Shown here piece by piece: positions 560 through 40,697 of a DNA stretch of 40,697 bases. This stretch comes from a virus. Position 1 is the stretch's first letter, and the number at the start of each line of letters is the position of its first letter. Both the position numbers and the translations under genes were made by a program. The notes beneath the pieces were generated by a model. The model saw nothing but the letters and a program-made list of their open reading frames with translations, ran no database searches and had not been told where the DNA came from. The stretch is from positions 1 to 40,697 of the IMG/VR virus record IMGVR_UViG_3300030382_001800, one strand, 5' to 3'.

Positions 560-577
560 AACGACTTAATTGTCGTT
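560..577 (-). promoter_or_regulatory. intergenic hairpin, AATTAA loop
   Basis: On the minus strand AACGAC-AATTAA-GTCGTT forms a 6-bp hairpin directly after the tRNA-like element 1 and before the AGGAG site of the 540 gene. The same layout and loop recur at 2305-2320 and 2775-2790 with different stems. Confidence 0.7.
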
Positions 578-578
578 G

Positions 579-622
579 AGGATAGAGGGGGAATCGAACC
601 CCCTCAAATTCCAAACTATCCT
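579..622 (-). ncRNA. tRNA-like mini-element 1 (acceptor/T-arm mimic)
   Basis: Minus-strand reading: acceptor AGGATAG (622-616), linker TTTGGAATTTG, T-stem AGGGGG, T-loop TTCGATT, then CCCCCT and CTATCCT (585-579). Seven plus six pairs make a continuous 13-bp helix, close to the 12 bp of a tRNA acceptor/T-arm. There is no anticodon arm and no encoded CCA. A TGG sits 9 nt after the first base, possibly mimicking the D-loop GG that docks on the T-loop. It starts 10 nt after the stop of the 632-1057 gene. Structure is seen; function is inferred. Confidence 0.75.
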
Positions 623-1591: not shown

Positions 1592-1627
1592 GAGTGGGGG
1601 GTAGGAGGTACAAAATTCCCCCCACTC
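1592..1627 (-). promoter_or_regulatory. strong intergenic hairpin (10-bp GC-rich stem)
   Basis: GAGTGGGGGG (1592-1601) pairs perfectly with CCCCCCACTC (1618-1627) around a 16-nt loop. It lies between the stop of the SprT-like gene (1645) and the start of the deformylase (1551). There is no T-run directly after it, so an mRNA stabiliser or processing site is as likely as a terminator. It takes the place that tRNA-like elements hold elsewhere in the unit, but has no T-loop motif. Confidence 0.65.
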
Positions 1628-2304: not shown

Positions 2305-2320
2305 GTGGCTTAATTGCCAC
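2305..2320 (-). promoter_or_regulatory. intergenic hairpin, AATTAA loop
   Basis: GTGGC-AATTAA-GCCAC on the minus strand, 2 nt after tRNA-like element 2 and upstream of ACACAGGAG and the SprT-like start. Same loop as the hairpin at 560-577 with an unrelated stem. Confidence 0.7.
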
Positions 2321-2322
2321 AG

Positions 2323-2365
2323 AACCCCACCGAGGAATCGAACCTCGGTGTAACCATTTGGGGTT
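2323..2365 (-). ncRNA. tRNA-like mini-element 2 (acceptor/T-arm mimic)
   Basis: Acceptor AACCCC (2365-2360) pairs with GGGGTT (2328-2323). Linker AAATGGTTAC. T-stem ACCGAGG pairs with CCTCGGT around the loop TTCGATT. Total 13 bp. The TGG begins 9 nt after the first acceptor base, as in the other three copies. It starts 6 nt after the stop of the 41-residue gene. The stem sequences are unrelated to element 1, so the pairing is kept by compensating changes. Confidence 0.75.
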
Positions 2366-5363: not shown

Positions 5364-7150
5364 TGGCTGAACCACAATTAGAAGTTTTTAAACCTACTGC
5401 TGATGAAACAAAGATTATCAAGCGTGTAGAGAATATGTTTCAAATGGGGAAACGTGCTCGTAAAGATGTTACCAATATGTGGCGAGAAGCAGAGAAGTTG
5501 TATGCAGGTTTACATTGGGATGGTATGAATATGCCAAACTTTAAAAACCAAATTACAGTAGACTTAATTGCCTCTGCTATTGATACAATGGTTCCTATTC
5601 TCTCTGATAGACCACCTAAAATTGATGTGATGGCAGTTAATGCTGATGATGAGAGTACACAAGCCTCAGAGATATTACAGGCTCTTATGAAAGAGGTTTG
5701 GGAAATAAGGGATATGCAGAACTTAGTTCCTGATCTACTTCTTGATTACTTAGTATATGGAACAGGCATTATGAAGTTACATTGGAATAATAATGATGAT
5801 TTACCCGATTGTGATATTGTAGACCCTTTTGCATTTTATATAAACCCATCTGCAACGAAGTTAGAGAATGCGGAGTGGGTTATCTATTCAGCCCCTGTAC
5901 CTTTATATGAGATAAAACATAAATATACAAATGGTAAATATGTTAGATCACAGGCAGAACTTGATAAGTATGAAGCGTATAAAATAGGGAAAACAGATAT
6001 TGGCGGAGAAAAAGTTCAGGTAACTGATACAAAGGGTTCGCAAACAAATTACCATGATAGTGAGGCTCATGCAATGGAGAGTCTAGAGGAAAGAGCTCTA
6101 GTGATAGAAGCGTATATGAGAGACACTACAAAAGAATACATTAAAGATGATAATGGGAAAGAAATTAAATCTTATAAGTATCCAAATATGATGAAAATGT
6201 GTACGATAGCTAATGGTGTACTATTGTATGAAGGCCCATCAAAATATCCATTCTTTTCAACAGAGGAACATCTACCTCACCCCTTCCCATTCATAACGCT
6301 AAAGAATGTTGGTGGGCCACACTCTTTTTGGGGTAAGCCTGAACCAAAGAGATTAAAGTCATTAAACTTAACTCTTGATCGCTTATCATCTCAGATAATG
6401 GATAATATCCATTTAACCGCCAACCCTATGTGGATTGTCGATGAAACGAGCTCTGTTACTGATCAGATTTCTAATAAACCCGGACAGGTCATACGGAAGA
6501 AAGGCCCCGGACAAGTTGCGATGCAGAGCCCATCATCAATGCCGGGATATGTATTTAACTTTTATCAATTAATTCAAGATTTATTTGAGACAGTTAGTGG
6601 AGTTAATAAAGCTACACAAGGAAAAGACTCCTCAAATGTAACAAGTGGTGTTCAAGCTCAGATATATAGACAGGCATCCACTACAAAATTAGATTTTAAA
6701 GCTCGTACAGTAGAGAAAGCAATAAGTACACTAGGACAAATGTGGATAGCAATGTTTAAAAACTTAGGTACAAAGATGCAAATGATAAACTATGTATTAC
6801 CTGATGGTATGGAAGAAATGCGTGAAGTGATGGGTATTTCATTAGCATCAATGAATTTTCAGGTACGAGCTAAAACAGGAAGTATGTTACCTGAGAATAA
6901 GCAATTTGTAGAAAATAAAATACTGCAATTAGCACAATTAGGTATTTTGCAAGACAGCGAATATATAATTGAAAACATGGAAATGCCGGGCAAAGAAAGA
7001 TTGCTTAAACGTATGAGAGAACAGGCTGAGGCTCAAGAAGAGCAAGGACTAAATCCCTCAGAGTTAGGTGGGTCTGAAGATGAGATATATGAGCAACTAA
7101 GGAACAATCCTGAACTAATGAATGAAATAGGGCAAGAATATCGTTCCTAA
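5363..7150 (+). CDS. portal protein
   Basis: 595 residues directly after terL, typical of podovirus portals (500-720). The N-terminal half carries features seen in this class: a helical start, then GLHWDG, DTMVPILSDRPPKIDV and a segment describing lipid-free beta structure around DPFAFYINPSA. The stretch SSQIMDNIHLTANPMW followed by SGVNKATQGKDSS resembles the conserved stem and tunnel-loop part of P22-like portals. The C-terminus is acidic and glutamine-rich. The portal forms the twelve-fold ring at one capsid vertex, nucleates assembly and is the channel for packaging and ejection. ATG overlaps the upstream stop. Confidence 0.88.
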   Translation: MAEPQLEVFKPTADETKIIKRVENMFQMGKRARKDVTNMWREAEKLYAGLHWDGMNMPNFKNQITVDLIASAIDTMVPILSDRPPKIDVMAVNADDESTQASEILQALMKEVWEIRDMQNLVPDLLLDYLVYGTGIMKLHWNNNDDLPDCDIVDPFAFYINPSATKLENAEWVIYSAPVPLYEIKHKYTNGKYVRSQAELDKYEAYKIGKTDIGGEKVQVTDTKGSQTNYHDSEAHAMESLEERALVIEAYMRDTTKEYIKDDNGKEIKSYKYPNMMKMCTIANGVLLYEGPSKYPFFSTEEHLPHPFPFITLKNVGGPHSFWGKPEPKRLKSLNLTLDRLSSQIMDNIHLTANPMWIVDETSSVTDQISNKPGQVIRKKGPGQVAMQSPSSMPGYVFNFYQLIQDLFETVSGVNKATQGKDSSNVTSGVQAQIYRQASTTKLDFKARTVEKAISTLGQMWIAMFKNLGTKMQMINYVLPDGMEEMREVMGISLASMNFQVRAKTGSMLPENKQFVENKILQLAQLGILQDSEYIIENMEMPGKERLLKRMREQAEAQEEQGLNPSELGGSEDEIYEQLRNNPELMNEIGQEYRS

Positions 7151-27206: not shown

Positions 27207-30200
27207 TGGCTAATACTCTAAAGTTTAAACGAGGTACAGATTTATCTAACGCAGGTACTCCATCGGCAGGTGAACCTGTATGGAATAGCAGTACGAATAA
27301 ATTATATATTGGAGATGGATCAACTTCAGCAAGTTCACTTACACAAATAGGAGCAGAGTTCTTACCATTAGCAGGTGGTACACTTACAGGTAATCTTACT
27401 GTTGGTTTAGGTAGTGTTGACCAATATATTGATTTAAAAAAGGGCAATTCTGACAAACATGGAATTATAAGATTTTACAGAGAAAGTGCGTTAGAATGGG
27501 GAATTGGTCATGCTTCGGGTGAGGGTAGCGATCCTTATCAATTAACAAGCGGTACAGAATTTGGTATATGGTATGGCTCTTCTCCATCTTATGCTATGTA
27601 TTTTGATACAAGTAAAAATGCAACTTTTGCATCTGATTTAACCATTACAAGTGAATTATTTATAACTAATAGAGGTTCAGCTTCAGCACCTGCTATAAGG
27701 TTTGGGGGTGATGGCTCTAGTGGTATTTACTCTGGAAGTTCAGCAGAGTTTGGATATGCTCATGGTGGTTCACAAAAGTTTCTAGTCAATAGTTCGGGTG
27801 ATGGAACCTTTGCAGGTACTGTAGGAGTAGGTGGTGCAACTGTAGGAACATTTGGAATAAGAAATGCAAGTAGTACACCAACATTATACTTTCATGATGA
27901 GTCAGTACCATCTACAAGAGAACATTATTTAAGAGGACATTATAGCAGTAGTGCAAATACAGGGAATGCTGTTTCTTTTAATATAGAGAATACAGCAGGT
28001 TCTTCATCTGAAATAATGAGAGTATCAAATGCAGGTGTCGGTATAGGCACAGATAGTGCGTCTGATACTTTACATTTAGAAGATGGTAATAATACAAAAA
28101 TAAGATTTAGTTATGGAAGTGGTCTTTACATAAATCAAATAGCAAACGAATGGGACTCTAGTACTTCAGCAAATAATAAAATGGGGTTTCATGTAAGTAC
28201 TGGGCATACAAGTAATACTGTTGAACCATTAACATTAAAAGGAGATTCTTCAGCTACATTTGCAGGAGATGTTTCAGTTTCTTCATCAGACCCAACTATA
28301 ACTATAAAAAGAAGCAATAGTTCATCTTATGCAGGACATTTAGATTTTACAAATAATGCAGATGCTCTTGGTTGGCAAGTTGGAACTAATCAAGTAACTG
28401 GTGATGGATTTGAAGTTAATTATGGAACTGCTAATAAATTTTATTTAACAACTAGTGGCAATGCTACATTTACAGGAACAATAGGTTCGGGGGCAATTAC
28501 TTCTACAGGTGGAATAACAGGAACTACAGGAACATTTTCAGGTGATATATATCAAAGTACAGGAAAATTTAGAATGGAACGCTCTACTGATTTATTATCA
28601 GGAGCACATAGAAAAGTTCAGATATTCAATGACTCATCTGTATTTATAGACCAATATTCATATAATGGAGGTTATAATGCTTTGAATCATTACAGGTCAA
28701 ATCATGCAAGTATTGGTTCTTTTACTGCTACAGCGGATGGAGATATATTAGGCACAATTAATTGGCATGGTACAGATTCGGGAAATTCTAAAGTAGCTAT
28801 TGGTTGTGCAATAGACGTTAGGCAAGATGGTAACGCAGGTGCTGATTATACACCAAGTAAATTGGCATTTTATCTTTCTAATGGTAGCAATATTTCATCT
28901 AAGACTCTCGAATTGAGAGCAGACCAATCAGCTACATTTGCAGGTACAATATCAAATACAGGATTAGTATCAAGCACAGGTAATACAGCAGGATTTAAGT
29001 CTATAAATGCTAGTACAACTTCTAAAACTACTCAAGTAGCTTATGATGGTTTATATACAAATGGTGCTCAAAATCAATTTATATCATCTGATCAAGAAAT
29101 TAAATTTTACCCGGGAGGTGTAAACAAGGTAACGATGGAGACTGATGGTACAGTCCAATTTGTAGGCACAGCAACTTTTCAAAGTAATACTACTTTTGCT
29201 GAATATTTAAAACATGATGGAGATTCAGATACATTTATAAGATTTACTGATAATGCAATTAATTTTTCAACAGGTAACTCAACAGCTTTATCATTAGGTG
29301 GCACAGTAAGTGGTAATACTGTTAGAGGCGCTACCACATTTGACAGCGATGTCACTATCAATTCCGCCTTTACTATGTCGGGTGCTGATAAAACATTTAA
29401 TGTTACTAATACTACAACAAATGGACAAACAACAAATTGGATAACAGGTAGGAATACCCAAGACCATGGAATTTCACATTATTATAAGGATACAAATGGA
29501 AATGTTAGAGGGCGAATTACTGCACACATGGGGGAAGGTACTCTTGGCTTAGCTCTTGCAGGTAGAAACTCTGGCTTTGGTGACCTTTTCTTGGACTCAA
29601 GTGGTAACGCTACATTTGCAGGTGCTGTTGAAGTGGAAGGCAATCTTACTAGTAGTTCATCTGACGCATACAATAATATTATATTTGAAGCCTATCATGC
29701 AGGGGTTGGTACAAACAGCTTGGTATTTCGCAAGTCTAACCATGCTTCAAATGTTATACAAACAACAAGTGGTCAAATATCGGGAATGATGCATTTTCAA
29801 GGGGTAGATACGAATAATGCATTTGTGGATTCCGCATCTATTATAGCAACGCAAGATGGTTCATCAGCTAGTGGAAGAGCACCAACAAAATTGTCCTTTT
29901 CTACATCTTCTTCCACAGCTTTTAATACAGACCAATTTGTTCTTAATTCAAATAATTCAGCTACATTTGCAGGAAATGTTGGAATTGGAGTAACTGCAAA
30001 CCATGAACTACAAGTCAATGGCAATATAGTTATTAAAGATGATGGATATATTGGGGTAAGAAATACTGCAAATACCGATTGGGGCTATGCTTTTAAACTT
30101 CAATATGGGGATAATATAGTTGTTAATCCTGCTTTACACTATGACCATACTACAGTTCCTTTTGGGAATGTTGGTATTGGGGTTGGTGAATCTGATGCTG

Positions 30201-39031: not shown

Positions 39032-39251
39032 AGTCTAAACTCTCCCCTGCATAAGCAGGATCGTGGTATCTATCTTTCCTGTATGGATACTTATCAGGAT
39101 CATTTGAGTTATAACACTTATCACAGTAAGTATTTGTTACAGGTATTCCATAGGCATCGTGCCTAATCCAATCGTGCCATAATTGACCATTAGCCCTAAC
39201 GTATTCACGTTCAGACTCTTTATCACATCCTGAACATATTGGTTTATGCAT
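39021..39251 (-). CDS. zinc-ribbon protein, 76 aa
   Basis: Two CxxC pairs: C6-x2-C9 in ICSGCDKESE and C43-x2-C46 in YCDKCYN, the spacing of a zinc ribbon. The tail is rich in Y and D. TAATG overlap with the upstream gene. Small zinc ribbons of this kind occur in many phage early regions, without a known function. Confidence 0.65.
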   Translation of the reverse strand: MHKPICSGCDKESEREYVRANGQLWHDWIRHDAYGIPVTNTYCDKCYNSNDPDKYPYRKDRYHDPAYAGESLDYDY

Positions 39252-39610
39252 TAGTATTCCTCCATCTCTAGCTCTTCACTATCAATATCTAGATCAACAG
39301 GGAAACACCAATTAGATATTTCCTCAAGGAATGCATCCATTACCTCAGTATCTACTTCTTCAATAGATTTCACTTCATCTAGTGCACTCATCATAGCCTT
39401 TTGGAACTCTTCATCCTTTGGGGTATGCTCAAGTACAAGGTTCTTACCAACCCAATAGTCAGATGTACTTTCCAATGCTACTCTAGTAACTGCATTACAT
39501 AGTTCATCCATTACATCATCCTGAATACCGATTTGATCGGTATCTAATGATAGATCAGGTAACTCTATATCTAAGTGATAGGTATTAGTTTGTCTTATTT
39601 CATATCTCAT
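39251..39610 (-). CDS. acidic hypothetical protein, 119 aa
   Basis: Very acidic product: about a quarter of residues are D or E, and the last 15 residues (DIDSEELEMEEY) are mostly acidic. Mixed alpha/beta by pattern. Such composition can mimic DNA or bind basic host proteins, but that is only a possibility. ATG at 39610 after ACACAGGAGTTAATA, downstream of tRNA-like element 3 and its hairpin. Confidence 0.65.
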   Translation of the reverse strand: MRYEIRQTNTYHLDIELPDLSLDTDQIGIQDDVMDELCNAVTRVALESTSDYWVGKNLVLEHTPKDEEFQKAMMSALDEVKSIEEVDTEVMDAFLEEISNWCFPVDLDIDSEELEMEEY

Positions 39611-39640: not shown

Positions 39641-39655
39641 GCGACACCATGTCGC
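39641..39655 (-). promoter_or_regulatory. intergenic hairpin after tRNA-like element 3
   Basis: GCGACA-TGG-TGTCGC on the minus strand, 6 bp with a 3-nt loop, 2 nt after element 3, followed by TAATTAA and the ribosome site. Confidence 0.6.
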
Positions 39656-39657
39656 AG

Positions 39658-39700
39658 AGGGTAGGGGAGGAGTCGAACCTCCCCAATACCATACTACCCT
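39658..39700 (-). ncRNA. tRNA-like mini-element 3 (acceptor/T-arm mimic)
   Basis: Acceptor AGGGTAG (39700-39694) pairs with CTACCCT (39664-39658); linker TATGGTATTG; T-stem GGGAGG with CCTCCC; loop TTCGACT. 13 bp in total, TGG again 9 nt from the first base. The stop codon TAG of the 39694-39906 gene is the last three bases of the acceptor 5' strand, so coding sequence and structure overlap. Confidence 0.78.
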
Positions 39701-39906
39701 TTAGGTTTAACTTCTAACAGTTGATATAGAACATCTAGTCCATCATTAGTATTATCTCGATATGCTCGACCAATATCTTCCACTTGTTCATATAACTCTT
39801 TATCTGTCATATGTGATATGTCCGTATCCCTCATTTCACATTCGATCTTTATGTCTTCAATACATAAGTAATGTCCAAAAAGAACTGCCTTATTATACTT
39901 ACTCAT
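39694..39906 (-). CDS. hypothetical protein, 70 aa
   Basis: Overlaps its upstream neighbour by four bases. Acidic helical protein (YLCIEDIKIECEMRDTDISH; ELYEQVEDIGRAYRDNTNDG). The last codons (KPKG-stop) lie in the acceptor stem of tRNA-like element 3. No family recognised. Confidence 0.65.
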   Translation of the reverse strand: MSKYNKAVLFGHYLCIEDIKIECEMRDTDISHMTDKELYEQVEDIGRAYRDNTNDGLDVLYQLLEVKPKG

Positions 39907-40157
39907 AACGACACCTTTGGAGTATACTTACTACCATCAATATCGTTATGTATAATCTGTAAGTATTTATAGTGATACCTGATCTCTTCTTTGACATGAT
40001 CAGGAACTGTCACTTTATAATGATCAGGACAATCCCAAGATTTAATGTATTTAAACATCCACTCAAGTTGCCCTTCTAATGCGGTCATCAATATAAAATG
40101 TTGATGAACTAATTCGCCAAGATCATTATTATCTTTCTTCTTACTCATTATGACCAC
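39903..40157 (-). CDS. hypothetical protein, 84 aa
   Basis: Starts at ATG 40157 inside the end of the 40148 gene; a second ATG two codons on may serve instead. Helical, with conserved-looking aromatics (GQLEWMFKYIKSWDCPDHYK). No zinc pattern and no membrane segment. No family recognised. Confidence 0.65.
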   Translation of the reverse strand: MVIMSKKKDNNDLGELVHQHFILMTALEGQLEWMFKYIKSWDCPDHYKVTVPDHVKEEIRYHYKYLQIIHNDIDGSKYTPKVSL

Positions 40158-40402
40158 CCTTTATCTTTTAATGATTGAGATACTGATCTACCTGACATTG
40201 GATAGATTGTCCATAATGGAGGACAAATATCCATTGAGTTGTCATAAGTAGAGCCAAAGTATTCCCGATTAATCATAGCCATAACTACCATAGCTCCTGC
40301 TAAATAGTCTGCCTCACTTTTGCAAACATTATTACGAACACGATCTAGAAGTACTTTTTCTACCTCATTGATTACTTCATGTTTGAACTTATCTTTTTTC
40401 AT
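40148..40402 (-). CDS. hypothetical protein, 84 aa
   Basis: ATG at 40402 after AAAGGAGATCACA. Helical N-terminal half (HEVINEVEKVLLDRVRNNVC; LAGAMVVMAMINREYF), then a Pro/Ser-rich end. No family recognised. First gene after tRNA-like element 4. Confidence 0.65.
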   Translation of the reverse strand: MKKDKFKHEVINEVEKVLLDRVRNNVCKSEADYLAGAMVVMAMINREYFGSTYDNSMDICPPLWTIYPMSGRSVSQSLKDKGWS

Positions 40403-40439
40403 TGTGATCTCCTTTACTTGTTTATGTTAGAGTGTTTAA

Positions 40440-40453
40440 ACAGCCTACGCTGT
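40440..40453 (-). promoter_or_regulatory. intergenic hairpin after tRNA-like element 4
   Basis: ACAGC-GTAG-GCTGT on the minus strand, followed by TTAAACA and the ribosome site of the 40402 gene. Confidence 0.55.
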
Positions 40454-40455
40454 CG

Positions 40456-40499
40456 AGCTATGGGGTGGAATCGAACCACCCCAAAAACCATTCATAGCT
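40456..40499 (-). ncRNA. tRNA-like mini-element 4 (acceptor/T-arm mimic)
   Basis: Acceptor AGCTATG (40499-40493) pairs with CATAGCT (40462-40456); linker AATGGTTTTTG; T-stem GGGTGG with CCACCC; loop TTCGATT. 13 bp, TGG 9 nt from the first base. The first base is the last A of the upstream TAA stop. All stem pairs differ from elements 1-3. Confidence 0.78.
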
Positions 40500-40633
40500 T
40501 AGAGCATATTCCTAGTTACCTCTACAATAGCTGTAATAAATCCTATTGTAGCAACCACTAGAAATACATTCTTTATGATCCTGTCTAGTTTAGGATCACC
40601 TTTAGCATCATGCTCTTTTAGATTTAGCATCAT
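40499..40633 (-). CDS. small membrane protein, 44 aa
   Basis: ATG at 40633, in the same ATGA overlap that the 1-201 gene has with the repeated upstream gene end. A charged N-terminus (MMLNLKEHDAKGDPKLDRI) and one membrane helix (VFLVVATIGFITAIVEV). Single-helix early proteins of this size may be membrane-acting or inhibitory, but no role can be assigned. It is the alternative neighbour of the 198-413 gene. Confidence 0.6.
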   Translation of the reverse strand: MMLNLKEHDAKGDPKLDRIIKNVFLVVATIGFITAIVEVTRNML

Positions 40634-40697
40634 TCTACACCATCCATTTCATTTAAAGCATTCGCTATTGTACGTGCTATTTTCTTATCCCTTGATA
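40630..40697. repeat. 68-bp perfect direct repeat, right copy
   Basis: Identical to 198-265. It holds the last 22 codons of the 198-413 gene, read leftward, and breaks off at the window end. Joining 40697 to 266 restores the complete gene. Confidence 0.95.

Follow-up and report, generated by a model that had tools for sequence, protein, structure and literature searches.

Stripped tRNA-like elements between the genes of phage polycistronic mRNA as candidate sites for host tRNA-maturation enzymes

tRNA-like processing elements are already known from archaea, organelles and metazoan lncRNAs. In mitochondrial tRNA punctuation, tRNA shapes mark the gene borders of polycistrons and ORFs end at or within the tRNA, and the tRNA-like domain of tmRNA combines an acceptor and a T arm with a reduced D region. 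RNase Z also acts in the making of mascRNA, a small tRNA-like RNA with acceptor and T arm which, like menRNA, derives from an lncRNA 3′ end (MALAT1 and MEN-beta respectively). RNase P makes mascRNA as well (PMC4919913), tRNase Z cutting at a t-element in the 5S rRNA leader of Haloferax volcanii makes the 5′ end of 5S rRNA (PMC4326828), and the tRNA-like structures of plant viruses such as TYMV mimic the tRNA elbow (PMC4810234).

The elements described here, RNAs of 40–44 nt that resemble the top half of a tRNA and are too short for an anticodon, were met in a window (the whole stretch of DNA analysed, 40,697 nt from an uncultured virus, IMG/VR record IMGVR_UViG_3300030382_001800) and then in many other, unrelated phages. 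The t-elements of H. volcanii and plant mitochondria likewise place a tRNA-like structure in a non-tRNA transcript, and the archaeal one is the nearest working analogue; they are archaeal or organellar and occupy few sites, whereas the phage elements lie in mRNA, are repeated at gene junctions, have no anticodon arm and a D arm of 2 bp, and are predicted to be cleaved. Among 4227 Rfam families, the nearest to one Streptomyces phage copy was mascRNA-menRNA (RF01684) at 26.9 bits, below its gathering score of 42.5. The D-arm letters of mascRNA and menRNA resemble those of the phage copy, but mascRNA is metazoan, longer and keeps a middle arm, and no homology to the phage element is expected. Mitochondrial punctuation marks gene borders with tRNA shapes as seen here, but with working tRNAs. 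tmRNA has acceptor and T arm in common with the phage elements, which come without a tag reading frame or coded CCA and escape ARAGORN and Rfam, and the TYMV structures are pseudoknotted and end RNA genomes, in contrast to the intercistronic position of the phage elements.

All four leftward elements proposed in a sequence-only reading of the window were recovered on the minus strand (Table 1). RNA folding gave a 13-bp helix in 4/4, made of a 7-bp acceptor and a 6-bp T-stem in each. As that reading had described, the T-loop is TTCGAYT (TTCGATT in three, TTCGACT in one), TGG begins at position 10, that is, 9 nt after the first base, no stem sequence is shared within the window and none of the four codes for CCA. 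A generic scan of both strands of the window for acceptor plus T-arm minihelices of 12 bp or longer yielded these four matches only, against 0.04 per window in first-order Markov shuffles (maximum 1 in 50), and GGTTCGAYTCC occurs exactly four times, always on the minus strand, with none for the reversed control motif. The covariance model, whose training set includes two of the four elements, scored them at 49.5–64.4 bits and its next best match in the window at 10.4 bits. Each element (4/4) is followed 1–2 nt downstream by a separate hairpin of 5–6 bp, then by a purine-rich ribosome-binding site and an ATG, and the TAG stop of gene 39694–39906 falls inside the acceptor of element 3.

Table 1. 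Mini-tRNA-like elements of the window and the hairpins behind them (scores in bits from a covariance model whose training set includes two of the four elements).
Feature	Position	Strand	Parts	Score	Neighbouring gene or signal
Mini-tRNA-like element 1	579..622	(-)	acceptor AGGATAG/CTATCCT; mini-D TT-TGG-AA; T-stem AGGGGG/CCCCCT; T-loop TTCGATT	64.4	
Element 1 downstream hairpin	560..577	(-)	AACGAC-AATTAA-GTCGTT		followed by RBS and ATG at 540
Mini-tRNA-like element 2	2323..2365	(-)	acceptor AACCCCA/TGGGGTT; mini-D AA-TGG-TT; T-stem CCGAGG/CCTCGG	49.5	
Element 2 downstream hairpin	2305..2320	(-)	GTGGC-AATTAA-GCCAC		upstream of gene 1645-2286
Mini-tRNA-like element 3	39658..39700	(-)	acceptor AGGGTAG/CTACCCT; mini-D TA-TGG-TA; T-stem GGGAGG/CCTCCC; T-loop TTCGACT	55.6	
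Element 3 downstream hairpin	39641..39655	(-)	GCGACA-TGG-TGTCGC		upstream of gene 39251-39610
Mini-tRNA-like element 4	40456..40499	(-)	acceptor AGCTATG/CATAGCT; mini-D AA-TGG-TT; T-stem GGGTGG/CCACCC	61.1	
Element 4 downstream hairpin	40439..40454	(-)	GACAGC-GTAG-GCTGTT		upstream of gene 40148-40402

Standard annotation passes these elements by: ARAGORN found no gene and Rfam 15, at gathering scores, no match in the window. Acceptor and T-stem are separated by 10–11 nt in the window elements, which thus do not have the anticodon arm plus D arm of a tRNA gene. Nor was an intrinsic terminator (GC hairpin and U-run) found, each element being followed on its 3′ side by C, the second hairpin and the ribosome-binding site, with no U-run.

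Elsewhere in the window, a larger tRNA-like fold on the minus strand (2793–2842; acceptor GGGTG../..CACCC, one 7-bp arm and a 4-bp T-like arm; fold z −3.44) precedes a hairpin (2774–2791), a ribosome-binding site and gene 2497–2754, the same order of neighbours as at the four elements; the covariance models gave no match to it, and it is possibly a divergent fifth element. A perfect 10-bp stem, GAGTGGGGGG/CCCCCCACTC, occupies 1592–1627 (minus strand) upstream of the peptide deformylase gene (1084–1551), where a mini-tRNA would stand. The final 68 bases of the window (40630–40697) recur exactly at 198–265, near its start but not from base 1, either as an assembly overlap or as a true repeat. 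With terminase as bait, no relative was found in viral contigs.

As in tRNA, a coaxial acceptor and T-stem helix carrying a T-loop TTCRANY was found both in the window scan and in the two alignments of relatives described below (A2 and A3). The nucleotides around TGG proved to be structured as well. The two on either side pair with each other in 4/4 window elements (TT-TGG-AA, AA-TGG-TT, TA-TGG-TA, AA-TGG-TT); IMG/VR copies carry AA-TGG-TT, TT-TGG-AA, CA-TGG-TG, CT-TGG-AG, TA-TGG-TA, AT-TGG-AT and GA-CGG-TC; and among 60 distinct copies the inner pair forms in 53 and the outer in 52, pairing that the search pattern did not require. Both sides had changed in 17/37 and 15/37 sequences of A2 at these two pairs. 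Because the TGG flanks pair and covary, the D arm, which the sequence-only reading had taken to be missing, is reduced rather than absent, with a UGG loop on a stem of 2 bp. C56 is the partner of residue 19 in canonical tRNA, where residue 18 is intercalated into the T-loop (PMC4810234), and a 2-bp UGG hairpin can present G18-G19 to the T-loop, in keeping with the earlier suggestion that TGG mimics the D-loop GG.

Helix length is the other constant. The 13-bp plan of the sequence-only reading holds for the window but not for the family, where 13 bp is one of three versions beside 12 and 11 bp. The break between acceptor and T-stem shifts (7+6, 6+7, 8+5, 5+7) while the total remains fixed, as a ruler enzyme would allow. 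Two outlying forms were also seen: in Mycobacterium phage Predator, an unbroken 12-bp hairpin with T-loop, without D mimic and followed by G-C (L233 7401–7433), and in a Bohxovirus, a mini-D hairpin with about 30 inserted nt, intermediate between mini-tRNA and tRNA (L142, ~1460–1526).

The covariation noted by eye among the four stems was borne out in homologues. Alignment A2 holds 37 distinct gap-free copies, and 99.8% of its 555 cells are paired against 62% when shuffled, a percentage that is partly selected because the copies were picked for paired acceptor and T-stem; free of that selection are the mini-D pairs and the double changes, with 209 cells changed on both sides against 55 in shuffles. 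Pairing fell to ~54% when the partner was shifted by one column. In alignment A3 (54 sequences of the 12-bp class), 99.5% of cells are paired and 200 are double-change cells, against 52 shuffled. Over the two alignments, covariation spans 11–13 pairs, slid-partner controls lie near 40–58% and compensatory changes are ~4 times those of shuffles, counts that are not probabilities and contrasts that are inflated because the sequences are related. The elements thus form a tRNA-like structural family without an anticodon arm, as had been proposed from the window.

Searches showed this family in many phage lineages beyond the one first analysed, cultured actinophages among them. A pattern search of IMG/VR (TGG, 10 nt, GGTTCGATTCC, 10 nt, TC) returned at least 118 stretches, most of those listed folding into the same plan, and covariance model R1 found 1–5 copies in 48 of 50 records previously retrieved by the pattern. 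Overall, dozens of phage contigs, many of the uncultured ones being fragments, and cultured phages of Mycobacterium, Gordonia and Streptomyces had 1–10 copies per genome in the model searches. The 12-bp class (mini-D GA-TGG-TC, discriminator A/G), known first from Mycobacterium phage SWU2 and Streptomyces phage Endor1, was then found in 85 viral DNA stretches; by model R2, Mycobacterium phage Konstantine has 5 copies, Predator 7 and Gordonia phage Cafasso 10, and no copy was found in T4, lambda, T7, SPO1, P-SSP7, HTVC033P, crAss001 or phi38:1, the last of which gave one marginal match to R1 (E 0.0087). Blastn placed the 11-bp class (mini-D CU-GGC-AG) at 351 sites in phage records of Streptomyces (107), Mycobacterium (26) and Microbacterium (2); the listed sites carry no RNA annotation. 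By contrast, a 19-letter version of the pattern matched only 5 stretches in 85,000 bacterial and archaeal genomes, and R1 found 2 copies, one of them in the seed genome, in 297 genomes from the phylum of one such match (a Bacteroidetes MAG). This rarity makes the element essentially a phage feature, as the earlier reading had supposed.

Some findings lie at the margins of the family. Blastn with one element against the phage collection also brought up many genuine tRNA T-arms (e.g. in Pseudomonas phage 254, with coded CCA), which were sorted out, and ARAGORN labels one copy (L036) tRNA-Phe, a mis-call. In Arthrobacter phage Glenn and Prochlorococcus phage P-GSP1 only weak or larger relatives were seen; the one in P-GSP1 stands behind psbA, ahead of the following gene, and is tRNA-like with an arm of 5 bp (L139, ~1490–1536). 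In Rhodococcus phage WC1, where the loci with the highest transcription are intergenic regions (PMC10986025), those regions showed no clear copy and one degenerate candidate (29207–29248). A 42-nt element of Konstantine (L229 8238–8279) is 100% identical in the Streptomyces phages SunsetPointe and Caliburn, of another host genus, which reflects recent exchange or strong constraint. Contigs L147, L178, L179 and L213 carry 3–4 mini-tRNAs in tandem, ~100–145 nt apart, perhaps released as small RNAs.

The placement of the elements is regular. A structure-only scan of the examined stretches of Konstantine, Predator, Caliburn and Cafasso located 27 elements in intergenic gaps no shorter than 50 nt, one in an annotated CDS and none antisense, gaps making up 17% of the sequence; 27 of the 42 gaps of that size bear an element. 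The single CDS case is at the 5′ end of Predator gp49 (L233 ~6169–6250), a gene whose annotated start codon is probably too early, because the equivalent place in Konstantine is a gap. Elements follow the stop codon at a median of 9 nt in these four phages and 7.5 nt in the uncultured set, and precede the start codon by a median of 45 and 37 nt respectively. In 25 of 64 contexts of the uncultured set the stop codon overlaps the 5′ strand of the element, most commonly with two letters of the stop as its first two letters. The parts follow in the order stop codon, element, hairpin, ribosome site and next gene, so that, as with t-elements, a tRNA-like fold lies inside a non-tRNA transcript beside a gene. 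Neighbourhoods include the gap behind the major capsid gene (L013 group), ParB or DnaB genes and a contig with a crAss-like terminase (L035).

The 3′ ends have a signature of their own. Because the initial pattern demanded U73 and C74, 3′-end statistics were recomputed on copies not matching it, with positions 74–77 numbered as in tRNA from the 12-bp helix (11-bp for that class). C74 is present in 148 of 170 distinct copies of this set; given C74, C75 occurs in 8/148, C76 in 50/148 and C77 in 34/148 (position 75 versus 76, Fisher p 4e-10 for sequences that are not independent), and CCA in 5/170. Judged from these copies, the 3′ rule is C74 kept and C75 avoided. True tRNA genes in the retrieved loci code for CCA in 128/277, the remainder reading nearly always N-C-notC, and the mini-elements, keeping C74 without C75, have the signature of these CCA-less phage tRNAs. 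Numbers are small for true tRNAs near elements (~8 loci, none with CCA) and for tRNA loci without elements (14/30 mostly code CCA). RNase Z handles CCA-less pre-tRNAs, CCA being its principal antideterminant (PMC4919913; PMC4810234). In the 12-bp class, G1-C72 is found in 46/54 (A3) and N73 is mostly a purine.

A strong hairpin (score ≥8) lies within 8 nt after C74 in 35% of copies, against 6% of tails after shuffling; the strongest mostly begin 0–2 nt past C74. Between the window and its relatives L036, L042, L066, L128, L131 and L132, the stem of this hairpin changes on both sides with loop and position kept. A 5′-terminal stem-loop within a few nt of the 5′ end shields bacterial mRNA, as known from work on ompA, and a hairpin held at this spot makes most sense if the discriminator is where a 5′ end arises.

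The best explanation of these data is probably that the elements are cis-acting tRNA mimics between the cistrons of phage polycistronic mRNA, cut on the 3′ side by RNase Z and perhaps on the 5′ side by RNase P; of the roles considered in the sequence-only reading, sites for these enzymes, with cleavage as the predicted step, fit best. The elbow, helix length, T-loop, G1-C72 and discriminator are features that RNase P and RNase Z use. The fixed-length helix (13, 12 or 11 bp), the canonical T-loop and the GG in its 2-bp mini-hairpin would imitate the tRNA elbow, and with it the distance from elbow to acceptor end, which is gauged by RNase P, RNase Z and the CCA-adding enzyme. A cut by host RNase Z would most likely fall at the discriminator (N73/C74), giving the downstream gene a new 5′ end 1–3 nt before the protective hairpin and its own ribosome-binding site and leaving the upstream gene with a structured 3′ end, with a presumed effect on mRNA stability. 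A cut there would explain why CC is avoided, why the hairpin stands where it does and why overlap with the stop codon is tolerated; the conservation of C74 does not in itself follow from RNase Z.

That RNase P is instead the main or only enzyme, its 5′ cut freeing a downstream message capped by the element, seems quite unlikely. G1-C72, the purine N73 of the 12-bp class, the retained C74 and the elbow mimic would suit it, and RNase P requires the T-loop but can dispense with the D-loop (PMC4919913). Yet its cut would destroy the stop codon in the 25/64 overlapping contexts, which argues against 5′ cutting in those phages and is why 3′ cleavage is ranked first; C75, which would aid pairing with RNase P, is avoided, and the hairpin stands behind the 3′ end, not the 5′ end. 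As a second cut, RNase P may act on the 5′ side where the stop codon lies at least 6 nt upstream, and cleavage at +1 is plausible where stop codon and element do not touch, as in actinophages. Proximity to the stop codon (median 7.5–9 nt) and overlap with it would also be expected of uncleaved structural insulators, a knot at the stop, often with a second hairpin, that blocks 3′ exonucleases or ribosome run-through and re-initiation; any stable hairpin would suffice for this, however, leaving the T-loop consensus, the covarying mini-D with GG, the fixed helix length and the C74/notC75 end unexplained, and we consider such a role unlikely.

A further proposal of the sequence-only reading, decoys or sponges for tRNA-directed enzymes or for tRNA-cutting host defences, would accord with the high structural fidelity of the elbow, the several copies per genome and the tandem arrays mentioned above, but it did not hold up well: copies stand one per gene junction, in fixed order, on the sense strand only and at fixed distances from stop and start, and they offer no anticodon to anticodon nucleases, so that this role appears very improbable. 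Likeness to tRNA 3′ halves in sequence, and the tRNA-Phe mis-call, might suggest remnants of tRNA genes, attachment sites or transcription terminators. These were rejected as contradicted by the covariation and are scarcely credible for elements that evolve by compensatory change, occur several per genome with different stems, keep a complete 5′ acceptor strand and have neither U-tract nor anticodon arm.

The element has no Rfam family, no description of it was found in the open-access journal articles searched, and both the stripped anatomy and the repeated use as punctuation in phages appear to be undescribed so far. We are inclined to think that the elements represent an unnamed RNA family in phages of several bacterial phyla, in which a stripped tRNA elbow serves as a general code for the cutting of polycistronic mRNA by host tRNA-maturation enzymes. 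The action of RNase Z and RNase P on phage mRNA thereby becomes a directly testable question, and the elements would provide a compact natural substrate for studies of both enzymes as well as a modular cutting tag. If the proposal is true, it would supply a reason for many of the 70–140 nt gaps in annotated phage genomes and explain by what means the stoichiometry of genes transcribed together could be set in such phages. Bacteria and their viruses would then have a tRNA punctuation system, with many phages, among them convenient laboratory ones such as Konstantine, Predator, Caliburn, Endor1 and Cafasso, turning tRNA-maturation enzymes into mRNA processors, as mitochondria do with real tRNAs.
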